From a virus, in the IMG/VR virus record IMGVR_UViG_3300025828_000144, positions 1 to 27,980 of that record: a stretch of 27,980 nt of DNA. One strand, given 5' to 3'. Numbering within the stretch: position 1 is the first letter of the stretch; every line of letters starts with the position of its first letter. Position numbers and translations under genes: made by a program. Below the pieces are notes generated by a model. The model made no database searches. It was not told where the DNA came from and saw only the letters and a program-made list of their open reading frames with translations. This document shows positions 3,897-27,183 of this stretch, piece by piece.

Positions 3897-4574
3897 TTAG
3901 GGAAAATTGCAAACATACTTTCTGAGTATTTTATCACACTTTTGTTTAAAATGTGTGTGCAAAGAGTTATTGAAACTAATTAGATCTTCATAGTAAAGAT
4001 CATTTTTGTACCTTTCAGTCATCATATTATAATAAGTCCACATCCTTAAATCTTCAATATCTTCTATAATTGATTGTGTCCAGAATATGAATGCGTATCT
4101 ATCACCTTTTATAACTTTATTGACACGATGAGGTGTTCCTGTTTCATATGTGATACCTTCACCAGCTTTGAGTTTAAACATTTTTTCCTTACCATCAATG
4201 AGTAAGACAAGTTCTCCCCCATTATAAGTATCTGGGTCATTCAAAAATATAGTGGTGCTGAAATTGCCAGATGCGGGATCATCAAAATGTGCATTATAGT
4301 AACCACCAGTCTCTGTTTTACTTACAATTGGATGTGAAACTCTAAGTGGATACGTATAGTTATAATATTCTTTGTTTGATCTTATTGTTTGATAGAATGC
4401 CTCTAGATCCAAATCAATTTCAGAATTCTTTTTTATCAAACTTAGATCAAAATTTGGTTTGTCGGGATCAATACTAAGAGATCTTAGTCCATTTTCCCAT
4501 ACACCATCTTCCATAGCTTTGTATATACTTTCAATTTCTTTTTTTGAAAAGAATTTCGAAATAAGATAAGACAT
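3897..4574 (-). CDS. 2-oxoglutarate/Fe(II)-dependent dioxygenase, 225 aa
   Basis: The double-stranded beta-helix motifs are complete. HFD gives metal ligands H96 and D98 (YYNAHFDDP), the third ligand is H149 in GTPHRV, and R159 in KGDRYAFIFW is placed to hold the 2-oxoglutarate carboxylate. The NGGEL and AGEG turns are typical of the PKHD or prolyl-4-hydroxylase group. The enzyme would use O2 and 2-oxoglutarate to hydroxylate a protein residue or small molecule. The ATG at 4574 shares a base with the stop of the tandem oxygenase gene (TGATG). It is the last of three adjacent oxygenase genes. The region is visibly more A+T-rich than the helicase segment to its right. Confidence 0.85.
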   Translation of the reverse strand: MSYLISKFFSKKEIESIYKAMEDGVWENGLRSLSIDPDKPNFDLSLIKKNSEIDLDLEAFYQTIRSNKEYYNYTYPLRVSHPIVSKTETGGYYNAHFDDPASGNFSTTIFLNDPDTYNGGELVLLIDGKEKMFKLKAGEGITYETGTPHRVNKVIKGDRYAFIFWTQSIIEDIEDLRMWTYYNMMTERYKNDLYYEDLISFNNSLHTHFKQKCDKILRKYVCNFP

Positions 4575-5794
4575 CAGACAAACCAAGTTACAATAGAATA
4601 ACGAGTTCCAGACTCAACGGGACAAACTCTATGGGGATAAAGAAATGTAGCGGGAAAGAATACTGCGGAACCAGCTTCAATCTTCATCTTATATTTGCCT
4701 CCCCAGAAATGCAGTTCTCCACCCTCATAATCATCATTTAATCCCAAGATTGCTGTCAAGGCTCTATTAGTTTTAGTACCATGATCAACATGCTCAATAT
4801 ATTCACCACCAGGACGATATCTGAGCATGGTATATCCAGAATCAGTTTCTATAGTTAGATGATTAAATCTGGAAACATAATCGTTCAGTTGAGTATTGAA
4901 AAACTCAAATAGTTTATTATCTAAGTCTTTTTCTTTGGCACTACCACCAGATGCTGAGATTTCAATCAAATCACATTTTCTTACTTTTGATTCTTCATTA
5001 CCCTCCATCATATCACCAGTCGTTAGAGCTGGTTGCCATAGTGAACTATTATCGTCAAAATAGTCCATCAGTTCTTTACACTGTTCCTTAGAGAAAACAT
5101 GCTTGTAATAGACGATTCCATCCATTAAATCATTCACATATTGTGGTTCTCCCATGTATATGTTTTTCATTTCGGTAATGACATGTGGTGGTGGTCTCCA
5201 ACCCATTTTAACATATTCTTCTGCTACAGTACGTCTCACGAATGGTTCATCTATTTCACCTCGATTAGAATCATCAACACAACAAGATGCAGCACCATCA
5301 GCTCTCACATAATGTAAAAATACCTGAGAGCAAAAAGTACCCTCAAATTTATGCCTCCAATGTGGTGAATAACATCCTAAGAATACTACACCATCCCCAG
5401 GTTTCATAATGACCTCTTGAGGTTCATTATTATGATCACAAATATAAATTGGCCAATCATCATCTGCATCAAGATTGACCGAGACTGTTAATTCACATGC
5501 TGGTCTATCTGTATGACTCTTTAGTTCTTCACCGTTTGAATATATTCTACTATACACATAGGTTGGTAATAGTTGAGACTCGACAATCAATGAAAGATCA
5601 TTGATCTTTTCATGAAGTAATTTACGAGAACCTTCATGGTTATAAACACAGGCTGAATTTGGTGCCTGACTGTCACCCTCATACTTATTTTTCTTATGAT
5701 CTTCTTTCAGATTATCCGAAAGTTCCTTGGCATATTCCAAACTAATAAAGTTTGGTATTAAGAGATAATTTTGTTCTAATAATGTTTTATTCAT
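4574..5794 (-). CDS. Tandem two-domain 2OG-Fe(II) oxygenase, 406 aa
   Basis: Two oxygenase domains are fused. Domain 1 (about 1-165) has H94-x-D96 in SHTDRP, then GCYSPHWRHKFEG with H145 or H148 as third ligand. The expected arginine that binds 2-oxoglutarate is not obvious there (CSQVFLHY instead). Domain 2 (about 215-406) has H335-x-D337 in EHVDHGT, H388 in YPHRV and R398 in GTRYSIVTW, all canonical. The linker contains a CC pair (SCCVDDSNRGE). I choose ATG 5794, which overlaps the previous TGA as ATGA; longer readings run into the neighbouring gene. Domain 1 may bind its co-substrate differently or may be a substrate-recognition module. Confidence 0.82.
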   Translation of the reverse strand: MNKTLLEQNYLLIPNFISLEYAKELSDNLKEDHKKNKYEGDSQAPNSACVYNHEGSRKLLHEKINDLSLIVESQLLPTYVYSRIYSNGEELKSHTDRPACELTVSVNLDADDDWPIYICDHNNEPQEVIMKPGDGVVFLGCYSPHWRHKFEGTFCSQVFLHYVRADGAASCCVDDSNRGEIDEPFVRRTVAEEYVKMGWRPPPHVITEMKNIYMGEPQYVNDLMDGIVYYKHVFSKEQCKELMDYFDDNSSLWQPALTTGDMMEGNEESKVRKCDLIEISASGGSAKEKDLDNKLFEFFNTQLNDYVSRFNHLTIETDSGYTMLRYRPGGEYIEHVDHGTKTNRALTAILGLNDDYEGGELHFWGGKYKMKIEAGSAVFFPATFLYPHRVCPVESGTRYSIVTWFV

Positions 5795-6396
5795 TTCAAT
5801 ACTCCATGAATCCAACCTGTGCAAATATATTTTACTTCTGATTTTGGTGGATAACCACGATGAGTATAAGTCCAAGTTGATGGAAATATAATCATCTTCC
5901 CTGTTTCTGGTTGTATTTTTGTTCCATCAATAAACTCAGTATAACCATCTTCATGAATATCATTTAGATACCAAATGAAAGTAAAGTATCTTGGATTCCA
6001 ATTGGAATCTTCATGGCCATGTGCAAAATCATGATGCCAAGTATAAAATCCACCTGGAACTGTTTCTTGTATCTGATAACCAGCATCTCCCCAACCCTCA
6101 CAATATTCATGTATGTCCATGAACTTATGAATTTCACAGTATTTTTTGAAATACTCAGATACCTTATTGCAAAATATTTTATCCTCCTTTTCCCATCCTG
6201 TGATTTTTGATATTGATAAGTCCGTAGATTTCTTTATCTCTTCATTTAATCCAGCACCAACTAACCCAGGATACCGTCTGTCATCGGTCTTGAATTTTTC
6301 AATACAGTGATTACAAAAATCTTCATCTAAAGCATTATCAAATTCAGTAATGAAGTCGGAGAATTTATAATTTGGGGCACTAATATCAGTTATCAT
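5791..6396 (-). CDS. 2OG-Fe(II) oxygenase, 201 aa
   Basis: The motif WHHDF provides HxD (H121, D123). H179 in YTHRGYPP is the third metal ligand, and K189 in SEVKYICTGW stands where an Arg or Lys binds 2-oxoglutarate. The layout is that of the prolyl-4-hydroxylase-like superfamily. ATG 6396 is the first in frame after the 44-aa His-rich gene; no strong ribosome-binding site is seen. It is first of the three oxygenase genes and probably co-transcribed from the late promoter at 6567-6574. Target unknown; candidates are virion or host proteins. Confidence 0.82.
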   Translation of the reverse strand: MITDISAPNYKFSDFITEFDNALDEDFCNHCIEKFKTDDRRYPGLVGAGLNEEIKKSTDLSISKITGWEKEDKIFCNKVSEYFKKYCEIHKFMDIHEYCEGWGDAGYQIQETVPGGFYTWHHDFAHGHEDSNWNPRYFTFIWYLNDIHEDGYTEFIDGTKIQPETGKMIIFPSTWTYTHRGYPPKSEVKYICTGWIHGVLK

Positions 6397-12306: not shown

Positions 12307-12314
12307 TATTTAGT
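12307..12314 (-). promoter_or_regulatory. Late-promoter-like motif ACTAAATA
   Basis: Minus strand TAACTAAATACATAAA. ACTAAATA differs from the T4 late core TATAAATA at two positions and is followed by CA exactly as in the copy at 18205-18212 (shared CTAAATACA). It overlaps the stop of the 1952-aa gene and lies 19 nt before the start of the 784-aa gene. Confidence 0.5.
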
Positions 12315-15300
12315 TATAGTGCCTTGATAATGTAGAAGAGACCGAAATAAGGAGGTAGATTTCTATTAGTCCCAGATACACCAGCAGGATCAGCTGTAGC
12401 AGGGTGAGTATGACCACCGTTAGGTCCAATTGGGTGTGCATGACCACCTGCAGGATTTGCAGTGTGTGTATGTGCTCCAGCTGGATCTGCATTGTGAGTA
12501 TGTCCACCAGCACCTCTAGATGGGTGAGCATGATCTCCACCAGGGTTCACAAAGTGTGAGTGAGGAGCACTAGCAGCTCTAGATGGGTGGCCGTGAGCAC
12601 CAACTGGGTTCACAAGGTGTGAGTGAGGAGCATTAGCACCTGTTGTTGGTCTAGTGGCAAAAGCTGGATTATTAACACGGGAGTCGTTTCTTCCCTGGAA
12701 ATATGCTCCAGCACCCCTATTAAATCTAATAAGTTGGTGAGAGTGAGGAGCATTAGCACCTCTAGATGGGTGTCCATGAGCACCACCAGGGTTTATAAGG
12801 TGTGAGTGAGGAGCATTAGCAGCCCTGGATGGGTGTCCATGAGAACCACCAGGGTTCACAGTGTGTGAGTGATCTGCAACTGGATCAACATTGTGAGCAT
12901 GAGCAGCAATTGGATCTATTGGGTGAGTGTGTGCTGGTTCATCGCCAATATTATGACTATGTGCTGCAACTGGATCATTAGTAATCGTATGTGTATGATC
13001 AATCACACTCGCATTAGCTTGACCACCAGTTCCACCACGGTTATATGTATTGCCAGCGGTTACAACAAATCTATCTTCTAAGTTTGGAATCAAGAATGTT
13101 GTTCCACTTGGATTTGCACCATATGGGAATACTGTTCCACCGTCTGTGAGAGTATCATATAGATCAGGATAAGTTGTTTGACTAACTTCGGATCCATCAC
13201 AAACAAGCCATCCAGTGGGGAAGTTTGATGATGTTCCTGACCATGGAATAATTCCGCCAACAGGAATAATATTGTCAGCCTCAATTCTGTCACAGACGAT
13301 ATTTCCATCGACGTTAAGATTATCCTCAACCATGACATTGGTTGTGGCACTCTTGAGAACCAGATTCTCACTATTAAGTGACTCAATTCTACCAGTAGAT
13401 GCTCCAACACCAATTCTCACGTTAGCAAGATCGGCTCCAGCATCACCTTCAATCTTGCCAGCGAATGTACCAACGCCAGCAACATTTAGAGCACCTTGAA
13501 TGTCCGCACTACCACTAGATCTGAATCTTCCAGTAACTTCAAGGTTTGCATCGATCTTGGTATTGCCAGTGATATTGACAACATTATTGACTCTTAGTGG
13601 ACCATCAAACTGAGATAGTAGTGTCTTAGCAGGGCCACCTTCAACAATGAGTCTTTGGCGAACTGTAACTTCGTCGAAGATAACAGATAGAACAGAGGCA
13701 TCTTCACCACGAACAGTGGGAATAGGAGCATCAAATGTGGATTCGGCACCAGTTGATGGGTTGATGATTTTGTTACCAATGAAGAAATCACCATCATTGT
13801 TCATAGCGGTGTATACAACAACACCACCAGATCTCTTCTGGGACTGAGTTAGAAACTCTTCCTTATCAGTTAGAGTGATTGTCTGTACCTGAGGTAGACC
13901 AGTTGAATAGTTACCAGGGCCATAACCAAGATATTCAAATGTATGACCAGAACCTCTTAGAATAGATGGTCTGCGAAGCTCAACACCTCTAACATCAATC
14001 TTCTTGACCAAAGTTCCTTGTTGATGAGTCTTAGTCTTAGATCCAACATAACCTCTGATGACTTCTAGTTCATCATTATTTGATCCACTTAGTTGAGAAC
14101 TTGCAATTCTCATGATCTCACCATTGATCTCAATAAAGGATCCGATTGGGAATCTTATGTCGGTTCCAACTCCAGAATTTACAAGTTGAATCTTGACTTT
14201 ATTATCTGCTTCAGCTTCACCAAGATCATTATTCAGAATTCCATATTCTTGATTGTAAATATTAAATACTCTGGAACCAATGGATTCAGTCTCGGCACTA
14301 ATTTCACCACCTTTAGCTGCAAATGCAGTTGGTAATACTTTATTTGGGAAAACTCTAGTAAGATCTTTTTGTGTGAAAACTGTGAATGTATTGATACCAA
14401 CTCTTTCTAGGACAGTAAAATCACCAACATTATTATTTGATGTATCAATGACTCTAAAACTAGATCCAGCAACTAATCCATGAGCATCATTGGTGATAAT
14501 TGTAGAAATTCCACTGAATGACTCTACAGTGTTAATACCGATGCTTTGTCCACAATCAAGAACAAATTGGCCTAAGAATGGATTTGGATCTCCAGTCGTG
14601 ACAGCGAAAGAAATTTTCTTTTCATTTACAACACTAGAAATTTGATAGATTCCATCATCAGTTTTGCCAATGCCAGTCAGTTGGATTGAATTGCCAATAC
14701 AAGATGTGATGCCACCGACAGCAGCAGTAATATCTGCACCAGTGAATCCATCTAGATCTAGAATATCACCCTCACTGATAAAAGATCCACCATCAATTAT
14801 TTCGACACTTTCTACTGCACCACCAGATCCAATAATAACTTTTGCAGTTGCATTGGACCATTCGGAAGTACCATCTCTATAAAGTTTTGTGTTGTAATAC
14901 TCACCTTCGGTGAATCCACTACCATTATTCAATGCTGAATATGTTACAATACCAGAGAATCCATGAGGCCTATCAAATTCTACTGTTGCAATACCAACAA
15001 CATCATTCCTTTCATAAGAAACAATGGTTCTGCCATATCCAATAACTTTAGAGAAATAATTTACACTCTCTCTTGTAATACTGTTCTCTGGATCATCTAC
15101 TGCAACGTCTCCAATTGGATTTCTCTTTGCAAAAGATTGTGCAGATCTTGGATTTGAATTCACATTATCTCTATCCAACTGTGGATAGAATCTTTCAATT
15201 TTAGGTAGGAAACTTAAATTATCAAATTCTTCTGTGATTGTATTGTTTGCAGCAAGAATATTGAAGTGGTATATACCATCACTAATTCCAGGAATGTGAT

Positions 15301-18172
15301 TCTGAATAACTTCGGATCTATAAAGGCTGATGTTATTATTATTATTAACTCTCTGATATCTTGCCATTAGGGAAACCCTAGTATTCATATCAGAAGTAAA
15401 GTCACCAGGAACTCTTAGAATTCCATCAATATCAGTTGTTCCATATGTAAAGGTCTTATCATCTTCAATTTGTGTAACCGTAAAGGTTCCGTTATATCCA
15501 CTTAAAGCTGCACCAGTTGGGTTGGTTGTACTTTCAACATCAACAATATTAATGATATCCCCGACATTTAAATTATGTGGAAGATCGACTCTTGTTGTTA
15601 CAGTGGATCCACTTACACTACATGTAGAAATATATCTTGGATTCCTACCAAAATCATAATCAGTTACATCAATTGTTGATATTGTGAAGTCCTGATTATT
15701 TCTGGCAGCTGTTGTATTACTATCCTGAAGAATGAAACCTTCGACTGGATTTCTACCGATTGTTGATTCTTTGGGTATAAAATATCTTACTTTATATACC
15801 TTATCACCAAGCGATCTATTATCAGCACGTCTCTTCACAAATGTTTCTGAAGTTTGAGCCCCAATTCCAATAACTCCACCCTCGCTCAGGAAAGAGCTAT
15901 AAATGTTATTGTTTTCATTTACATGAATGAACCAGTTATTATGATTGGGATCATAGAGAATGGGACATCCAATCTCATTGGCAGCCTTATCCGATACTCG
16001 ACTTTCTACTCTGAGACCAGTTCCACCATAAACTGTGATTGCCTCTCCTCTAAGTGCATCACTAAGAGTTGATGCTACTCTGAACAGTGCAAGATTGATG
16101 CCATCAACGATAGCATAATAAACAGTATCTTCCTCTAGATTTTCTGGAATGTCACCATCTTCACTATAGATACGAACTTTTTCACCAGTTTGTAGGTTGT
16201 GATTGACCTGACACGAAAAACGCCCTTCTGCATCAAGACCAACAATATTTGTAATTCTTTCTTTTGACCCCTGACCAGTTGCAATAGTTGTGCCAGTGGA
16301 TACTAAAGTATCAGTAATAAGAATATTTGCATCATATACAGTGTCATTTATATTCACATATAGTTTGTCATTTTCTCTTGCACCGATACGATAACCCTGT
16401 GAAATAATTGCTGGTGGGTTATCTTGGTCAGTAAATCCAAATAGATATAGATGACTTGTAATACCAACAGAAGTTGTCAGGCCAACATCTAGTGTAAATA
16501 AGTCAATATTTGACTCTTCCTCGGAAATGGTCTGAGGAGCAACAATTGATGTAATATAACCTTGATCATCCTTGGCGAAAGCTTCTTTCTTAAATCCTTC
16601 AGAAACAAGTGCAATTTGGCCAAAGTTTGAGTTTGAGTTGGTGATAGATGCGTCACCACCAGACTCACAATTGAAGTGTTTGTTAAATCCAATAGCGAAC
16701 ACGGACACAATCTGAATGATTGAGTCATTAATCATTGAGATGTGAGATGTTTCCCAACCCTTTCTATAAACAGCTCTACTGTCTAGGTGATAAACCGTAT
16801 TGCTATTTGTTGAACTAGAACCACTCGCAAGTTCTGCACCAGTTACCTTACTGACAGTAATACCATCATAGGTTCTGGATACTGGGTTATACTTAACAAA
16901 AGCACGGTCATCTTTCTGTAGTGATACAGCCGTAAACTGTGCCACAACCATGGACTTAAATCCAGCAGCAGTTGCACCATCAGCCACCATTCCGTTCATG
17001 CCATAAACGGAGCGTAGAGAGACGTTGAAGACGTATGGGGATGCACCTGTGACTGTATCAGTCTCAATGGTTGCATCAGCACCTGAGATGCTTCCAGTTG
17101 CTAATAGAGTGGGATCTACGTCTGGTAATAGATATGTAAATTGAGTATCTGAAACAACCGATTGTACAAATGTTGAGATATTGTAATCAGCAGGAGTTAC
17201 ACCCTTAATTTTAATGGGCGTGCCAACACTCAATTCATGGGGGCCATTTGTATCAACAGTAATGAGTGTTGATGGACTTACACCATCACCAGATTTGATG
17301 GCACTAATGCTAATAGGATCGGATGCAAATGCACCAACAATCTCCCATTCAATTCTACTCTTTGAAAATCCTTGTGCCTGTAGAGGGAATTTTTGATCAA
17401 TATTTCTACCAGATGCCTCATTAAAAGCATTTGATAGTTTACTATAATACATATCAAGGTCGGTTAGACCAGTACCATCAATCTTATTCACACCATCAGC
17501 AAAACCAAAGCAAGTTAGTTTGTGGTGTGAAAATGTGGGTTTGGACTTATTGATGTCAGAAAATTCTTGTGGATCTGTATAAACTTCAGTATTCAGACCA
17601 CCATCAAAAAATGTAAAGTCTCTAAAATAACAAGTACCAGTAAGACGAATTAGTGAAGTATCATATGCATCACTATCAGTTGGGTTTGGTACATATAGTG
17701 GCCTAATCTTTGTCTTTCTTAGATCTAGACCAACGATAGATGTACCGCGAGGAAGAATTGTACCACCCCTAGAGCTGTTAAACTTATACAGCATATTATC
17801 TTCAACATTTAAGTCAAAGACGGAATCTAGAGATAATGATAATGTATCTTGAGCAAGAGTCTCTGTTCCAGCTGGAGAAATTGCCTTGGCAATACCACCA
17901 TCATCTTTGATTCTAAATCCAGGGCGGTTATCTACAAAGTGCTCACCTGGAAATAGTAGAATTGTTGTTCTATCAAAGAGATCATTGTCATTTCCTCTCA
18001 CATAGGAAAATCTTGCTGATTCTAGAAGAGCTCTCTGAATAGTTTTAAATGGTTGGGATAATGAATTACCCTGATTTTCAATACTATCGGTAGCGTTAAT
18101 GTCATTAGGGTTGACGTAAAGAATCTTACCCTCTGTATTTTTAATAAAGTTTTGAAGCTTACTAAGAGGCAT
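12314..18172 (-). CDS. Giant tail-fibre protein with collar domain and HxH tip, 1952 aa
   Basis: The N-terminus (MPLSKLQNFIKNTEGKILYV) and the following SQPFKTIQRALLESARFSYV are typical of large marine-phage structural proteins with right-handed beta-helix (pectate-lyase-like) parts. The long middle is beta-rich. From about residue 1639 a phage tail-collar domain appears (GGIIPWSG, GWLVCDGS, FLIPNLEDRFV), as in T4 gp12 and other adhesins. Residues 1726-1923 carry 17 HxH motifs. The protein ends NLPPYFGLFYIIKAL, a usual collar ending. I infer a receptor-binding fibre whose tip is a metal-stabilised trimer. It is much longer than T4 gp12 (527 aa) or gp37 (1026 aa). The late-type motif at 18205-18212 precedes it. 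Confidence 0.8.
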   Translation of the reverse strand: MPLSKLQNFIKNTEGKILYVNPNDINATDSIENQGNSLSQPFKTIQRALLESARFSYVRGNDNDLFDRTTILLFPGEHFVDNRPGFRIKDDGGIAKAISPAGTETLAQDTLSLSLDSVFDLNVEDNMLYKFNSSRGGTILPRGTSIVGLDLRKTKIRPLYVPNPTDSDAYDTSLIRLTGTCYFRDFTFFDGGLNTEVYTDPQEFSDINKSKPTFSHHKLTCFGFADGVNKIDGTGLTDLDMYYSKLSNAFNEASGRNIDQKFPLQAQGFSKSRIEWEIVGAFASDPISISAIKSGDGVSPSTLITVDTNGPHELSVGTPIKIKGVTPADYNISTFVQSVVSDTQFTYLLPDVDPTLLATGSISGADATIETDTVTGASPYVFNVSLRSVYGMNGMVADGATAAGFKSMVVAQFTAVSLQKDDRAFVKYNPVSRTYDGITVSKVTGAELASGSSSTNSNTVYHLDSRAVYRKGWETSHISMINDSIIQIVSVFAIGFNKHFNCESGGDASITNSNSNFGQIALVSEGFKKEAFAKDDQGYITSIVAPQTISEEESNIDLFTLDVGLTTSVGITSHLYLFGFTDQDNPPAIISQGYRIGARENDKLYVNINDTVYDANILITDTLVSTGTTIATGQGSKERITNIVGLDAEGRFSCQVNHNLQTGEKVRIYSEDGDIPENLEEDTVYYAIVDGINLALFRVASTLSDALRGEAITVYGGTGLRVESRVSDKAANEIGCPILYDPNHNNWFIHVNENNNIYSSFLSEGGVIGIGAQTSETFVKRRADNRSLGDKVYKVRYFIPKESTIGRNPVEGFILQDSNTTAARNNQDFTISTIDVTDYDFGRNPRYISTCSVSGSTVTTRVDLPHNLNVGDIINIVDVESTTNPTGAALSGYNGTFTVTQIEDDKTFTYGTTDIDGILRVPGDFTSDMNTRVSLMARYQRVNNNNNISLYRSEVIQNHIPGISDGIYHFNILAANNTITEEFDNLSFLPKIERFYPQLDRDNVNSNPRSAQSFAKRNPIGDVAVDDPENSITRESVNYFSKVIGYGRTIVSYERNDVVGIATVEFDRPHGFSGIVTYSALNNGSGFTEGEYYNTKLYRDGTSEWSNATAKVIIGSGGAVESVEIIDGGSFISEGDILDLDGFTGADITAAVGGITSCIGNSIQLTGIGKTDDGIYQISSVVNEKKISFAVTTGDPNPFLGQFVLDCGQSIGINTVESFSGISTIITNDAHGLVAGSSFRVIDTSNNNVGDFTVLERVGINTFTVFTQKDLTRVFPNKVLPTAFAAKGGEISAETESIGSRVFNIYNQEYGILNNDLGEAEADNKVKIQLVNSGVGTDIRFPIGSFIEINGEIMRIASSQLSGSNNDELEVIRGYVGSKTKTHQQGTLVKKIDVRGVELRRPSILRGSGHTFEYLGYGPGNYSTGLPQVQTITLTDKEEFLTQSQKRSGGVVVYTAMNNDGDFFIGNKIINPSTGAESTFDAPIPTVRGEDASVLSVIFDEVTVRQRLIVEGGPAKTLLSQFDGPLRVNNVVNITGNTKIDANLEVTGRFRSSGSADIQGALNVAGVGTFAGKIEGDAGADLANVRIGVGASTGRIESLNSENLVLKSATTNVMVEDNLNVDGNIVCDRIEADNIIPVGGIIPWSGTSSNFPTGWLVCDGSEVSQTTYPDLYDTLTDGGTVFPYGANPSGTTFLIPNLEDRFVVTAGNTYNRGGTGGQANASVIDHTHTITNDPVAAHSHNIGDEPAHTHPIDPIAAHAHNVDPVADHSHTVNPGGSHGHPSRAANAPHSHLINPGGAHGHPSRGANAPHSHQLIRFNRGAGAYFQGRNDSRVNNPAFATRPTTGANAPHSHLVNPVGAHGHPSRAASAPHSHFVNPGGDHAHPSRGAGGHTHNADPAGAHTHTANPAGGHAHPIGPNGGHTHPATADPAGVSGTNRNLPPYFGLFYIIKAL
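12404..12997 (-). repeat. DNA repeat array encoding 17 HxH motifs
   Basis: Seventeen His-x-His motifs (x = S, T, G or A) recur mostly every 10 or 11 residues. Their connectors are alike: NPGGAHGHPSRGANAPHSH-type units alternate with DPAGAHTH-type units. One connector is longer, with an insert that includes FQGRNDSRVNN. The DNA units are similar but not identical, so this is a degenerate coding repeat and not a recent duplication. Confidence 0.85.
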
Positions 18173-21314: not shown

Positions 21315-23483
21315 TTATGTCCTTATACATTGAACAACGAATAATGTACTACTTTGATATCTGATAGATTCATCTGCGACAAATTCACTTGCCTTAGTAA
21401 ATGATATCACTGGTCTTATATTGGCACCAGCACCAGTTTTACTATTTATTTCTATTTCTGGAATTTCTGTCCATCCGCAAGTCTCACCTTTAATTAAGAT
21501 CTCAACGAGTTGTCCAGAATCCGTATATCTTCCTTCGAGAATCAGTCCAGGCATTTCTGGAATGGTTACAATTTCATCATCCTGAGCATATCCATATCCA
21601 GTATTTGTAATCGTAACACCATCCAAACATCCAACTACGGGAACAAGAACAATTTTATCATCCTCATCTCCAGGGCCACCGCCACCATCTTCACCGCCAT
21701 CATCATCACCGTCATCATCATCAGGTTTTCCTGGATCCACTACATTGCTATCATCATCGTCATCATCAATAATAGTCTCATCTCCACCGATGGGTTTTCT
21801 TTGGTCATCATTGGGATCACCATTATCAGATCCATCTGGAGCATCTAGATAACCATATCCAGGATTCGTAATAACAATATCTTTTATACTTCCATCATCA
21901 TTGAGTGTTGCATATCCAGAAGCTGCACTTCCATATCCACATGGATCATCAAATGCCACAAATGGAGGATACTTATATCCAAGTCCTCTCCTTTCAAGTA
22001 AAGAACCAATAACAGATCCTCTTTTGCTGACAACAGCTGATGCAATAGCTTCAGATGTTGGATTTCCACCAAATATATTCACCAAAGGTGGTCCACACTT
22101 AACCGCTCTTGCAATATCACAGTTAGAAAGTCCACCTTCGGTGAATCCAGCCGCATTCAACCAATCTTCAGCACTTTCAACAATTGGGGGGACATTTATT
22201 TGTCCAAGGAAACTTGCATAATCATCTTGTTGTTTCTTTGTTGGACCACCAAATGCTGTAGAATTAAATTTAGTAACCTCGACACAATTTTTTGTGAGAC
22301 ACAAGAAACCAAAGATACCTAATACCTGATCAATTGCACTAGAAATTGCACTTCCAATATCCAGAACACCATTCAGTAAATCCTGAATGTCCTCAATAAT
22401 TGGATCAAGAACTCCCTGAATAGAGTTGACAACATTATTAACAAGAGAATTGATAAATTTCTCAGCCGCACACAGAGGTGCAGCCGCAAGTTGACCAATC
22501 AATGCCGCAATGAAGTCTCCAATCAAACCAGGAAGTTCATCAATTGTGGTCTGGAATATACAAAATATGATATCTAGAATTTCTGATATTACCGCATCCT
22601 TAATATCCTTTAAAACATCACCTAAAATAATTTCTAGTGCGTTACTTAAAAGTTTTCTGAGTTCTCTTAGAACAAAATTTCTTATTCTTTGGACAATTGT
22701 CCTCATTACGGCAGCAATATTTTCGATTACGTTTTGTATCTGCCCAATAAAATCATATGTTTTGTTGATTGCACCAACAACATAAGTATTATAATATTTT
22801 TTTACCCCATTCAGAATAACAACTAGTTTTGATATCTCTACCCTAATTCTCGATACAATATCATTACCACAATTATTTGGGCCATTAAACTCTTGGGATA
22901 AGATAGATTCTTCTAAGGCACTTCTGGAACTTGGAACCCACCAAGAATCTTTCGTACCATCTCTTACTTGATTTACTGCAAATTCTCCCGATGGATTTGC
23001 AGTCTTTCCTTGACCACTCAGTAAGGATTGTTTGTCTGGATTCTTCCCCTCAGATATAATTCTCCAAGCTGGAATATTTCCCCAGGCATATAATGGCCCA
23101 GATTTGTAAGGATTTGCACCATCCTTTAATTCTTGTTTTGAAAATGTTGTTAGATTACTCCACCTATCAATGATACCATCAATAATAGGAATTTGAGCAT
23201 CATCTCCATCGGCAAAATATCCAGTTACTAATTCTCCACCAACAATGGCACTAGACTGTCCATTATCCGCACCAGCAGTTGTTGGTTTTTTGACCATGGC
23301 CAAAGGAAGATCTTCATCTGGTAAGATTGAAGTATCTTCTGTATGATACCCCAATATTCTTACTGGTACAGACTCACCATAAAACTTTTCAGCATCAATG
23401 GTTACGGGAACTTTCCCGAACCAGTAACGCATACCATCTCTTCCTAAGAAATAACTTGTCTGTAGAGATTGATCAAGGTTCAT
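21315..23483 (-). CDS. gp5-like baseplate hub protein without lysozyme domain, 722 aa
   Basis: The N-terminal ~110 residues (MRYWFGKVPVTIDAEKFYGE, then DLPLAMVKKPTTAG and GELVTGYFADGDDAQIPIID) follow the OB-fold of T4 gp5. A long helical, hydrophobic middle (about 200-400) with several ILDIIFCIFQ-type stretches follows. Then come Gly/Tyr repeats (NPGYGYL, NTGYGYAQ) and a very acidic segment at about 545-613 with runs such as DDDDDD and DDDGGEDGGGG. T4 gp5 is 575 aa and carries a lysozyme; no lysozyme motif is visible here. It overlaps the upstream gene by TGATG. I infer a hub subunit that binds the spike. Confidence 0.7.
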   Translation of the reverse strand: MNLDQSLQTSYFLGRDGMRYWFGKVPVTIDAEKFYGESVPVRILGYHTEDTSILPDEDLPLAMVKKPTTAGADNGQSSAIVGGELVTGYFADGDDAQIPIIDGIIDRWSNLTTFSKQELKDGANPYKSGPLYAWGNIPAWRIISEGKNPDKQSLLSGQGKTANPSGEFAVNQVRDGTKDSWWVPSSRSALEESILSQEFNGPNNCGNDIVSRIRVEISKLVVILNGVKKYYNTYVVGAINKTYDFIGQIQNVIENIAAVMRTIVQRIRNFVLRELRKLLSNALEIILGDVLKDIKDAVISEILDIIFCIFQTTIDELPGLIGDFIAALIGQLAAAPLCAAEKFINSLVNNVVNSIQGVLDPIIEDIQDLLNGVLDIGSAISSAIDQVLGIFGFLCLTKNCVEVTKFNSTAFGGPTKKQQDDYASFLGQINVPPIVESAEDWLNAAGFTEGGLSNCDIARAVKCGPPLVNIFGGNPTSEAIASAVVSKRGSVIGSLLERRGLGYKYPPFVAFDDPCGYGSAASGYATLNDDGSIKDIVITNPGYGYLDAPDGSDNGDPNDDQRKPIGGDETIIDDDDDDSNVVDPGKPDDDDGDDDGGEDGGGGPGDEDDKIVLVPVVGCLDGVTITNTGYGYAQDDEIVTIPEMPGLILEGRYTDSGQLVEILIKGETCGWTEIPEIEINSKTGAGANIRPVISFTKASEFVADESIRYQSSTLFVVQCIRT

Positions 23484-23716: not shown

Positions 23717-24985
23717 TTATGCGGATGTTGTTTTTCTTCCCTGTGTATCTCTTACAAGTCTTAGAGATGTGAAAGAATTTGCATCATCAATGTAGTGACA
23801 CAATTCTTTAATTACATAGTTGCCACTTAGATTATCATCAAATTCAAAGTTGCATCCTATTTTTGGAACATCAACACCAATTACATCTCCAGCATGTAGA
23901 TCGAAATTTGATGGAACTGTAATATTTAGCACCTGTGTGAAAAGAAGATTATATCTAGAAGGTGAAAGAGCCGAATATTGTGAAAAATCCATATTGATTT
24001 TGGTTGCATCAAATGGAGATTGTGAGTTCTTGAGACCAGAAAATATTCTAGATCCACTTAGATCAATACCCTCTGGCATTTCCCATTCATTCTTACCAAG
24101 AAGACTTGCAGAATTGGCCTGCACTGAAAAATCAAATGTTATGTTATCATCCAGTTCCTGTGTGAATGGATCAAAATTATATCTAAGAGCACCATATGTA
24201 CCTAGTTGTGCCTTCTCTATCAAATCATTTGTATACTCTTGATTATATGCAAGAATCTTTCTATCAACATCAACACCCTTTGGATCATATTGTGACTGCA
24301 TCGCATTTGACATATAATATCTTTCGGATGCTGCTTGAGCTGATAATTCATCAACTGAAACAAAATTATACCCTCTCCTTGTTTGATAAAAAACATATCC
24401 AGCAACCTTTCCAGGTTTATCTCCAACGGACTTTACGGCTAAATGTGTAATCACTGTGTATGGCGGTCTGTTATTTCCCTGAAATGAAAACTTAGATGTT
24501 GTTGGTGTCAAAAAATAATCTAGATCAGTTTTTAATTCTGTAGTAAGAATACTCTCCACATTTTTATGTGTTGGAGATTCTGGAAGTTTTCTCTTTACTC
24601 TTGCACTGGCATTCTTAAAAAAATCTTCGGATATCATACTCAAACCAATGACCTCTTTATTGTCCTTGGTATTCATGAGTGCTGGTTTATAGCACCTTAG
24701 AGTTTTTAGATCTAGAAGTTGTTTTCTCTGATTCTCGATCTTAATATTTACTTTTTCTCCACCATCAAGAGGTAGTCCAGAAAATAAAGGTTCATTGTAT
24801 TTTTTGTCCGTGATACTATTCTTACCAGAATCCATTACGATAGCATTAGCCGTCATCACGGGAGAAAATATATCCTCATAAAAAACAAAGTATCCACCAA
24901 ATCCAGCACTTACGTCAACAGTCTTTTGACCATCCTTACTTGTGATTTCAAATTGTAAAATCCTTGAATATTCTGATGCTGACAT
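23717..24985 (-). CDS. gp27-like baseplate hub subunit, 422 aa
   Basis: The length is close to T4 gp27 (391 aa). The N-terminal barrel-like part (FEITSKDGQKTVDVSAGFGG) and the central stretch SFQGNNRPPYTVITHLAVKS, followed by AGYVFYQTRRGYNFVSVDEL, are characteristic of gp27-type hub proteins. The C-terminus (NFDLHAGDVIGVDVPKIGCN) has the beta-rich Gp27/VgrG-type end. In T4 this protein is the trimeric adaptor between spike and tail tube. It starts one base into the upstream stop (TAATG) and precedes the 75-aa and gp5-like genes. Confidence 0.75.
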   Translation of the reverse strand: MSASEYSRILQFEITSKDGQKTVDVSAGFGGYFVFYEDIFSPVMTANAIVMDSGKNSITDKKYNEPLFSGLPLDGGEKVNIKIENQRKQLLDLKTLRCYKPALMNTKDNKEVIGLSMISEDFFKNASARVKRKLPESPTHKNVESILTTELKTDLDYFLTPTTSKFSFQGNNRPPYTVITHLAVKSVGDKPGKVAGYVFYQTRRGYNFVSVDELSAQAASERYYMSNAMQSQYDPKGVDVDRKILAYNQEYTNDLIEKAQLGTYGALRYNFDPFTQELDDNITFDFSVQANSASLLGKNEWEMPEGIDLSGSRIFSGLKNSQSPFDATKINMDFSQYSALSPSRYNLLFTQVLNITVPSNFDLHAGDVIGVDVPKIGCNFEFDDNLSGNYVIKELCHYIDDANSFTSLRLVRDTQGRKTTSA

Positions 24986-27183
24986 TATGTGTACATTGAG
25001 GTTATGTTTCTGATACTATTTAATGGATCTACACGATTGGATCCAGCAAAATTTGTGCCACCAGATGATGGTGTGGGAACATATACTTTAGTTTCAACAG
25101 GAACTGGAACCATTGCAATAGTCATTCCTCTTGCCGTGCTCTGTTGTATTGAAGCTCTATTGTTTCGTTGTCTGACAGATACTGGACTCTCTACAGATCC
25201 AGGAGCACCATGAGATACGGAAATTTGATCCGTACCAAGAATCATCGCCTCTCTTCCATATCCACCTCTCATATAAACTTTTCCAACGGCGAATGGGAAT
25301 GTTGTTCTTGATCCTGGTTGACTTGGGAAAGTTCTCTGAATATTTGGATTGTTCTCTTGAATATCAATAGCTGGGGAAGACCTGCTTGCATGAGCATTTT
25401 GTTCAATCAGAAGAGCCCTTCTCAATGTAGAGTCCGATATTCCTTTACTAAGATCTTGACGACTACTTCCAAGGTGTACCCATGAACCTCTTGCAAACAT
25501 TGCCTTAATAGCATGGAAAGCAACTTCTCTAATTTCTTTCCTCTGTTTATTAGTTAGGTTTCTTGGCCCATCAATATGGAAGTGTGTTGCATAGTGAGTT
25601 TCGGTTGTTCCATCGGGTCCAAGTCTACTTCCAGATCCTCCCTGAATAAATCCACCAGGATCGGAAAGTCTTTGTGGTATTAGATTTAATCCACCCTGTC
25701 TAACTGGTCCTCTAACTGGTCCACTGAATGGTCCTTGTGGTGCTGTTTGTTGTCGGGATCTTGATAGTTTGTCAAAACTCTCTAGTGATTGCCATCCATA
25801 ATTTTTTCCACCCCATCTTACTGGTTTTCCATTAAGAACTGCTCTATCACCAAATCGTCTTTGTGGTGCTTGTGGTGTTGGACTAACAGTTTGAACATTT
25901 CCTCTTTGTCCAGGCCCACCTTTTGGATCAAATCCACCGAGTCTGAGATGTTCAAACATTCCTTTACCATAAGCATCTTCACTAAAACCAAGTCTTATGT
26001 TTTCTTTATCAGCATCGGGAGAATACTTAGGGATGATTGTTGCCATAGCTTCGGTCATACTATCATGACCATTATAATTATCTTTAAATCGGTGCGTACT
26101 GTGCCATAATTTGATATGATGTTTTACAGATGATTCAATACTATCATAAACTGCCCACCATCGACCAGCCCACTTAATTCTATCAATAATACCGTTTGTC
26201 CCAACTTCATGTTTATAAATTGTTTGTCCAAAAGCATTTGTTTTACCAGAACTAAAATATATACTGTTTGGATTTGAAAGATATCCTGTCTCCTGCATAG
26301 AATGAGCAGCAACCAATTCAGGAAACTTAGCACCACCAACTTTTACTGCTAGGCCATAAATGTAATCAAATGCTTGTTTTGGTGATAGATTGCTTGGTCC
26401 TGGTCCTTTTCCAGAAGGACCAGGAGTAGGTCTGGGAGTAGGTCTGGGAGTAGGTGCAGGTGTAGGTGTAGGTGTAGGAGTGGGAGTGGGTCTTGTAGCT
26501 TGTCCAGGTTGTTCTTCTTTTTGTCTCCTTTCTTCTTCAGTGGGTGGAGTTGTAATTTTTAGTACATTTATCTTTGCATCTTCAAAATCATTACCAAGAG
26601 ATTGAATATTTTTATCTAACTCTTTAATCTTTGTTTGAAACTTTCCATTGGGATCATTAAAATCTTGAAAATCAAAATTCATAATATTTTGTGTCGCCTG
26701 ACTTACGACACCAGTAATACCATTAATTATATTACCAATATTTTTAATCATACTCTTACCAGCATCAATGATATTGGTAATACGAAACTTCAGAGTATCA
26801 ATGAATACTAGAATTCTCGGTAATTGATTTACTAACCAACCAAGCAAGAGGAATCCTAGGGAATCCATAATTTTGCCCAGGAATCCCTTACCTCGATCTA
26901 GAGCATTTTTTACTGTACCACTAACATAACCACTTTTTGTGGAATTTGCTTCTAATAATTCTTCTCTCCTTCTTCTTCGATTTCTAGTTTCAAATAAAAA
27001 GTTTATTCTCTTTTCTGTTTGTTGAGCTTTGGCAGAAACTAAAGTCTTTCTTGTTAAGACTTTTCTTGCATTTATTGATGACTTTCTTGCAAATATAGAA
27101 TTTTTTCTGAGAGATAAAATCTGCTCATCTAAATTTGTTCTTTTGAATACGTTTCTTAATACTGGCGTGTTAATTTCTGCCAT
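24985..27183 (-). CDS. Hub protein with glucosaminidase-type hydrolase domain, 732 aa
   Basis: Residues 1-100 are basic and helical with RNRRRRREELLEANSTKSG. A hydrophobic segment (LGFLLLGWLVNQLPRILVFI, about 108-128) and a Pro/Thr linker (about 231-254) follow. Residues about 266-400 resemble an endo-beta-N-acetylglucosaminidase/lysozyme-like domain. HSMQETGYLSNPNSIYF has catalytic candidate E298, and NAFGQTIYK and WWAVYDSIESSVKHHIKLW follow. The C-terminal third has THFHIDGP (about 535), HASRSSPAIDI and GGYGREAMILG...SHG, reminiscent of a degenerate M23/M15 metallopeptidase. In T4 the hub lysozyme is in gp5; here the wall-cutting role seems to sit in this gp29-position protein. Confidence 0.65.
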   Translation of the reverse strand: MAEINTPVLRNVFKRTNLDEQILSLRKNSIFARKSSINARKVLTRKTLVSAKAQQTEKRINFLFETRNRRRRREELLEANSTKSGYVSGTVKNALDRGKGFLGKIMDSLGFLLLGWLVNQLPRILVFIDTLKFRITNIIDAGKSMIKNIGNIINGITGVVSQATQNIMNFDFQDFNDPNGKFQTKIKELDKNIQSLGNDFEDAKINVLKITTPPTEEERRQKEEQPGQATRPTPTPTPTPTPAPTPRPTPRPTPGPSGKGPGPSNLSPKQAFDYIYGLAVKVGGAKFPELVAAHSMQETGYLSNPNSIYFSSGKTNAFGQTIYKHEVGTNGIIDRIKWAGRWWAVYDSIESSVKHHIKLWHSTHRFKDNYNGHDSMTEAMATIIPKYSPDADKENIRLGFSEDAYGKGMFEHLRLGGFDPKGGPGQRGNVQTVSPTPQAPQRRFGDRAVLNGKPVRWGGKNYGWQSLESFDKLSRSRQQTAPQGPFSGPVRGPVRQGGLNLIPQRLSDPGGFIQGGSGSRLGPDGTTETHYATHFHIDGPRNLTNKQRKEIREVAFHAIKAMFARGSWVHLGSSRQDLSKGISDSTLRRALLIEQNAHASRSSPAIDIQENNPNIQRTFPSQPGSRTTFPFAVGKVYMRGGYGREAMILGTDQISVSHGAPGSVESPVSVRQRNNRASIQQSTARGMTIAMVPVPVETKVYVPTPSSGGTNFAGSNRVDPLNSIRNITSMYT
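26422..26491 (-). repeat. Pro/Thr linker repeat in the hub hydrolase gene
   Basis: About 70 nt of hexamer-like units related to GGTGTAGGTGTA and GGAGTAGGTCTG on the plus strand encode TPTPTPTPTPAPTPRPTPRP. It is a flexible extended linker between the N-terminal hub part and the hydrolase domain, and prone to length change by slippage. Confidence 0.8.

Follow-up and report, generated by a model that had tools for sequence, protein, structure and literature searches.

The C-terminal tip of the tail fibre encoded here is a needle of the T4 gp37 kind, in a longer and denser variant, and we regard it as very probable (about 0.82) that it constitutes a gp37-type receptor-binding needle whose metal sites alternate along its axis. 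The stretch of DNA analysed, hereafter the window, is an IMG/VR virus record of 27,980 bases whose nearest relative is Synechococcus phage S-T4 (82.6% identity over 60%), a phage placed in Kyanoviridae, Tamkungvirus. Residues 1-1542 of the fibre protein match the tail fiber protein phrog_529 (E=0), and its N-terminal 300 amino acids are matched in 460 cyanophage records, making the backbone a common one. Relatives of this backbone carry the annotation 'putative short tail fiber'; the C-terminus here has a split stem of the gp37 type. The features of the gene are as follows.

12314..18172, minus strand: tail-fibre gene, an open reading frame of 1952 amino acids in which the needle is the C-terminal ~230 residues
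13064..13258, minus strand: N-terminal part of the Collar domain (residues 1639-1703), PF07484 at 42.8-44.7 bits against a cut-off of 24
12737..12997, minus strand: outward ('up') arm with 9 HxH motifs, read directly, its His codons conserved in the near relatives L001 and L002
12626..12736, minus strand: tip segment, residues 1813-1849 (37 residues), within the 40-residue step from the ninth to the tenth HxH
12404..12625, minus strand: return ('down') arm with 8 HxH motifs, read directly
12317..12403, minus strand: C-terminal Collar-closing strand (...NLPPYFGLFYIIKAL), its NLPPY invariant in relatives
12509..12872, minus strand: DNA repeats inside the array, a 63-bp tandem (two HxH units) in each arm

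The HxH array and its conservation

The fibre protein contains exactly 17 HxH motifs, all of them between residues 1726 and 1923 (12404-12997, minus strand) and every one in its last 227 residues; direct reading thus returned the same count and coordinates as the preliminary description. Steps of 10-11 residues had been described there. The steps are indeed regular within each arm, but the first is of 12 residues and a 40-residue gap at the tip splits the array into nine and eight (12, 10, 10, 10, 10, 11, 10, 11, then 40, then 10, 11, 10, 10, 10, 10, 10). The outward motifs lie at residues 1726, 1738, 1748, 1758, 1768, 1778, 1789, 1799 and 1810, and the return motifs at 1850, 1860, 1871, 1881, 1891, 1901, 1911 and 1921. 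Likewise, the Collar does lie upstream of the array that had been placed next to it, but the array is inserted inside this domain (PF07484), which, as judged from the sequence, the last C-terminal strand resumes and closes. The closing segment is modelled as a strand at low confidence (residues 305-313 in a model of the last 315 residues). HxH is present in every unit of both arms. Among relatives the glycines and histidines of the array are invariant, and the tip sequence differs, as expected of a predicted receptor-binding tip.

When the 204-residue array was shuffled with its 34 histidines retained, a mean of 5.5 and a maximum of 15 HxH motifs resulted (100,000 shuffles) against the 17 observed, and shuffling the whole fibre protein gave six at most (5,000 shuffles). 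Composition alone therefore does not explain the array, as the shuffles never reach 17. Furthermore, the window has 7 matches to three HxH at exact 30-nt steps, and shuffled windows have none. Four near relatives (L001-L004) carry the identical layout of nine outward and eight return motifs, written 9|8 below, and the array is therefore no assembly artefact. Compared with L001 and L002, the 34 His codons together show 7 and 12 synonymous changes and no non-synonymous change, against 41 and 45 non-synonymous changes in the other codons of the array. The 63-bp tandems, together with 118-nt copies at 12509-12626 and 12755-12872, one per arm and 86% identical, indicate intragenic copying of units.

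Relation to T4 gp37

The details of T4 used for comparison were drawn from PMC6957217 and from the phage sequence. In gp37 the collar (811-881 and 1010-1026) is broken by the needle (882-1009), itself broken by the tip (932-959) (PMC6957217), and HxH motifs read from the genome stand at 883, 915 and 929 and, after a 37-residue step, at 966, 980, 989 and 998, an arrangement of 3|4. The solved gp37 structure (PDB 2XGF) and the window share a Collar interrupted by a needle, an outward arm, a tip, a return arm and HxH motifs, as well as a last strand that completes the Collar and a tip step of similar length (37 residues in T4, 40 in the window). They differ in the number of motifs (3|4 against 9|8) and in the span of the outward motifs, which at 87 residues in the window is ~1.8 times longer than the 49 residues of T4. 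Moreover, the outward arm of T4 includes 10-residue units without HxH (TTSSFDYGTK), whereas the window has none such, and the closing motif is NIAFNYIV in T4 and NLPPYFGLFYII in the window.

When the window was searched directly against PDB sequences, no significant match to 2XGF was obtained, only weak matches to the collar ending, and in hhalign the window's profile (A2) covered only the Collar of T4 (77%). A second profile (A3), built from short needles (3|2 and 4|3) that have the same collar, similar steps and the NLPPY ending, matches 2XGF at 5.8e-14, a value that includes the collar and carries a low-complexity bias; by hhalign it reaches 98.5% over the whole length of collar, arms and closing strand. 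A2 and A3 in turn match over the Collar at 99.9%. On these profiles, homology between the window and T4 gp37 would thus run by way of intermediate short needles. The likeness to the T4 needle put forward in the preliminary description is well supported by the Collar, the split stem, the tip length, the closing strand, the profile link and the count rule set out below, and so is its claim of a longer string of HxH sites than in T4 (9|8 against 3|4).

Central spikes of the P2 gpV type combine an OB-fold, a beta-helix and an apex with one HxH. Such a spike is ruled out here by the 17 HxH motifs and the Collar domain; neither OB-fold nor beta-helix was found.

Arm counts, and the proposed needle geometry and metal occupancy

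Relatives were gathered by protein searches and by pattern scans in which nothing was fixed but the closing strand and the two final return motifs; since most loci came from these scans, the outward counts are unselected. Removal of near-duplicates left 44 non-redundant families with one tip gap. The preliminary description had suggested counting HxH motifs in homologous fibres, and copy number does vary, from 3|2 to 11|10. Throughout this range (3|2, 4|3, 6|5, 7|6, 8|7, 9|8, 10|9, 11|10) the outward arm has one motif more than the return arm in 36 of the 44 families, compared with a mean of 8.1 and a maximum of 18 when arm pairings were shuffled (20,000 shuffles). Of the 27 arrays with 7 or more motifs, 23 obey this +1 rule, against a shuffled maximum of 14.

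Eight families break the count (L005, L161, L149, L273, L204, L219, L223 and L174). A single return position is vacant in L005 (a 20-residue step) and a single outward one in L161 (23), and L149 has an additional overlapping HxH at the tip; these three fit the rule only if that one vacant or overlapping position is taken into account. In L273, L204, L219 and L223 there is one extra outward HxH, 9 residues past the previous one and adjoining the tip, and three of the four show a 'DPGHxH' or 'DPTHxH' motif. An additional tip-adjoining outward HxH marks a tip subtype that comprises L204, L205, L219, L223 and L273. Outside the 44 families, the isolate ACG-2014f has 6|5 (11 HxH), and S-CAM7, left out of the count, has 5|4 with a 32-residue step.

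T4-like tips behave in a related manner. In T4 and nine such tips, outward gaps of 22, 31-32, 42 and 52 residues pair with 1, 2, 3 and 4 return steps in 10 of 10 cases; the short return steps are of 8-9 residues each, and despite their different units the two arms grow longer together. Mirroring of irregular step lengths between the arms was also tested and was not supported (p 0.23 and 0.95). We found no description of the outward/return count rule in the open literature searched, and as far as those papers show the rule is new.

The +1 rule and the co-lengthening of the arms support an arrangement of antiparallel arms whose sites would alternate along one axis. In the model we propose, a trimeric Collar domain would release three chains outward along the three-fold axis; the chains would form a small tip, predicted to contact the host, and then return antiparallel to finish the Collar fold. 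Each unit of 10-11 residues would turn one HxH pair to the axis, so that six histidines from three chains could surround each metal ion. As the HxH pairs of antiparallel arms would all face the three-fold axis and share no level, outward and return sites would alternate, and with one more outward than return site, outward sites would stand at both ends of the file. With n outward and n-1 return sites, 2n-1 ions would stand in a single line, which comes to 17 in this needle. It is plausible that the ions keep the three chains in register and lend stiffness to the thin needle, which would then hold the predicted receptor-binding tip far from the fibre body. We infer the trimer, its axial geometry, its occupation by metal, iron as that metal and receptor binding at the tip by analogy with known fibres. 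AlphaFold2 monomer models left the array unordered both for the window C-terminus (10 sequences, mean pLDDT 37) and for a 4|3 relative (12 sequences, mean pLDDT 50), and these models therefore neither support nor refute the geometry. Fold searches with them gave weak matches only, among which 8KEC, 1OCY and 2XGF appear with poor superposition.

The near-equal arm counts might instead stem from copying, by duplication or gene conversion between arms, together with shared ancestry and no structural constraint. The cross-arm copies and tandem repeats in the window favour such an origin, but copying alone would give no constant excess of one over arm lengths of 2 to 11, diverged sequences and steps of 10, 12 and 13 residues. 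Moreover, the units added to the two arms of T4-like tips differ in sequence and in length (10 against 9 residues), which means that neither arm was copied from the other, and we consider this explanation quite improbable. We give very little credence to a His-rich flexible spacer, or a metal-scavenging tail of a non-gp37 type, that lacks the needle fold altogether. Low-complexity composition and the unordered array in AlphaFold2 would suit it, but intertwined trimers are expected to model poorly as monomers, and the exact spacing, the tip split, the closing Collar strand, the invariant glycines and histidines and the match of the short relatives' profile to a solved needle all argue for a folded structure. 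The +1 rule, unexpected from a His-rich spacer, would follow from the alternating antiparallel geometry.

It is also conceivable, though rather unlikely, that the same needle has most of its sites empty in the virion, or occupied by zinc, nickel or manganese, with HxH retained for axial packing or hydrogen bonding. T4 gp37 holds seven irons (PMC6957217), the pyocin fibre HxH coordinates iron octahedrally through six histidines with a valence suggesting Fe(II), and iron occupies the HxH trimer sites that PMC6116203 lists, except in T4 gp12, whose crystals had zinc in the HxH site after refolding in zinc (PMC6116203). The gp12 zinc favours a sparsely or differently filled needle, as do the HxH-free units in comparable positions of other needles, which suggest that folding proceeds without full occupancy; units can lack HxH in T4-like outward arms, in a marine fibre (L028) and in the A-1(L) fibre, both described below, and metal is therefore not needed at every level. 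Against it stand the iron in the remaining listed sites, the loss of plaques in T4 with H929A and H931A (PMC6957217) and the retention of 34 of 34 histidines in the closest relatives, where the residues around them vary freely. Preferring the metal-filled needle, we infer from T4 gp37 and the pyocin fibre that each site may hold a metal ion, and that iron would be that ion.

A more far-reaching version, in which all 17 sites are filled with iron, the n|(n-1) rule is strict, needles evolve by paired insertions and marine cyanophages with 15-21 sites are unusually iron-rich, is possible but on balance doubtful. If all 17 sites were filled, a virion would carry ~100 ions, assuming six fibres per particle as in T4, and if the metal were iron, each fibre would carry two to three times as much as that of T4 (17-21 against 7), a quantity relevant to the suggestion that phages serve as ocean iron ligands. 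The idea of a role for phage tail iron in the ocean and HxH motifs in marine phage tails have already been published (PMC11705849 and its references); an ocean-iron role for this needle would be an extrapolation of that idea. From sequence alone, the count rule offers a simple test of whether a fibre has a needle whose metal sites alternate; where a fibre lacks a structure, the rule predicts how long its needle is, how the arms pair and how many ions there are. S-T4 and Sf-CH5 are isolates with named laboratory hosts, which makes their metal content measurable.

Related fibres and neighbouring genes

Needles with a Collar, HxH arms and a tip like those of the window occur in several Synechococcus phages, including S-T4 (9|8), Sf-CH5 and Sf-CH8 (10|9), Sf-FR1 (8|7, step 13), ACG-2014f and S-CAM7, with differences in unit number, step length and tip sequence. 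The array had been called an extreme case, and it is long beside the seven motifs of T4; however, 17 motifs recur in several cyanophage lineages, and Sf-CH5, with 19, and L233/L236, with 21, the largest count found, exceed it. In 15 isolate records the tip has a match at E <1e-5. The needles of S-T4, Sf-CH5, S-CAM7 and ACG-2014f sit on the window's fibre backbone, and the same backbone bears other C-termini in Syn19, P-TIM68 and S-PRM1, without HxH arrays, and in S-SKS1, with one motif on each side. As these C-termini differ on a common backbone, the needle appears to behave as an exchangeable C-terminal module.

The solved long tail fibre of Anabaena phage A-1(L) (PDB 8KEC), the best structural match to the window model, albeit a weak one, has HxH at 9-residue steps in a position similar to that in the window, but in one arm only; metal is not discussed in the paper that describes it. 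Citrobacter phage CkP1 gp267 and Alteromonas phage R22Y gp12 have fewer motifs than the window, 8 and 6 HxH respectively; both have been compared with the T4 needle in print, and no outward/return count rule is reported in the portions consulted of those publications (PMC10175313, PMC11705849).

Some fibres depart from the two-armed pattern. That of marine virus AG-345-F15 (L028:4860-6032) has 12 HxH in its outward arm only, with return units of similar length in which Ser, Thr or Val replaces HxH, and provides a natural test of whether one HxH arm suffices. L156 carries two tandem Collar-needle domains in one protein; in the first, 8 HxH run outward and 3 return, with HxH-free return units after them. 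Fibres of another type, in which HTH...Y repeats recur every 10-11 residues (L049:317-2770, L102:5614-6453, L105:9532-11325), were set aside as needle relatives, having neither Collar nor tip split. Five HxH at 30-nt steps, used as a scan pattern, returned mostly low-complexity His repeats and this pattern was likewise set aside, and none of the bacterial genomes scanned contained two 10-step HxH with an NLPPY ending.

Genes for 2OG-Fe(II) oxygenases lie close to the fibre in several cyanophages (4574-5875 in the window; L313, L315 and L026), and in ACG-2014f one annotated PiuC lies just upstream of it; this proximity is probably coincidental, because such genes are common in cyanophages. The window also encodes, at 24985-27183, a protein of 732 amino acids with a weak glucosaminidase match under the Pfam cut-off, near a baseplate hub/lysozyme homologue at 21315-23483.
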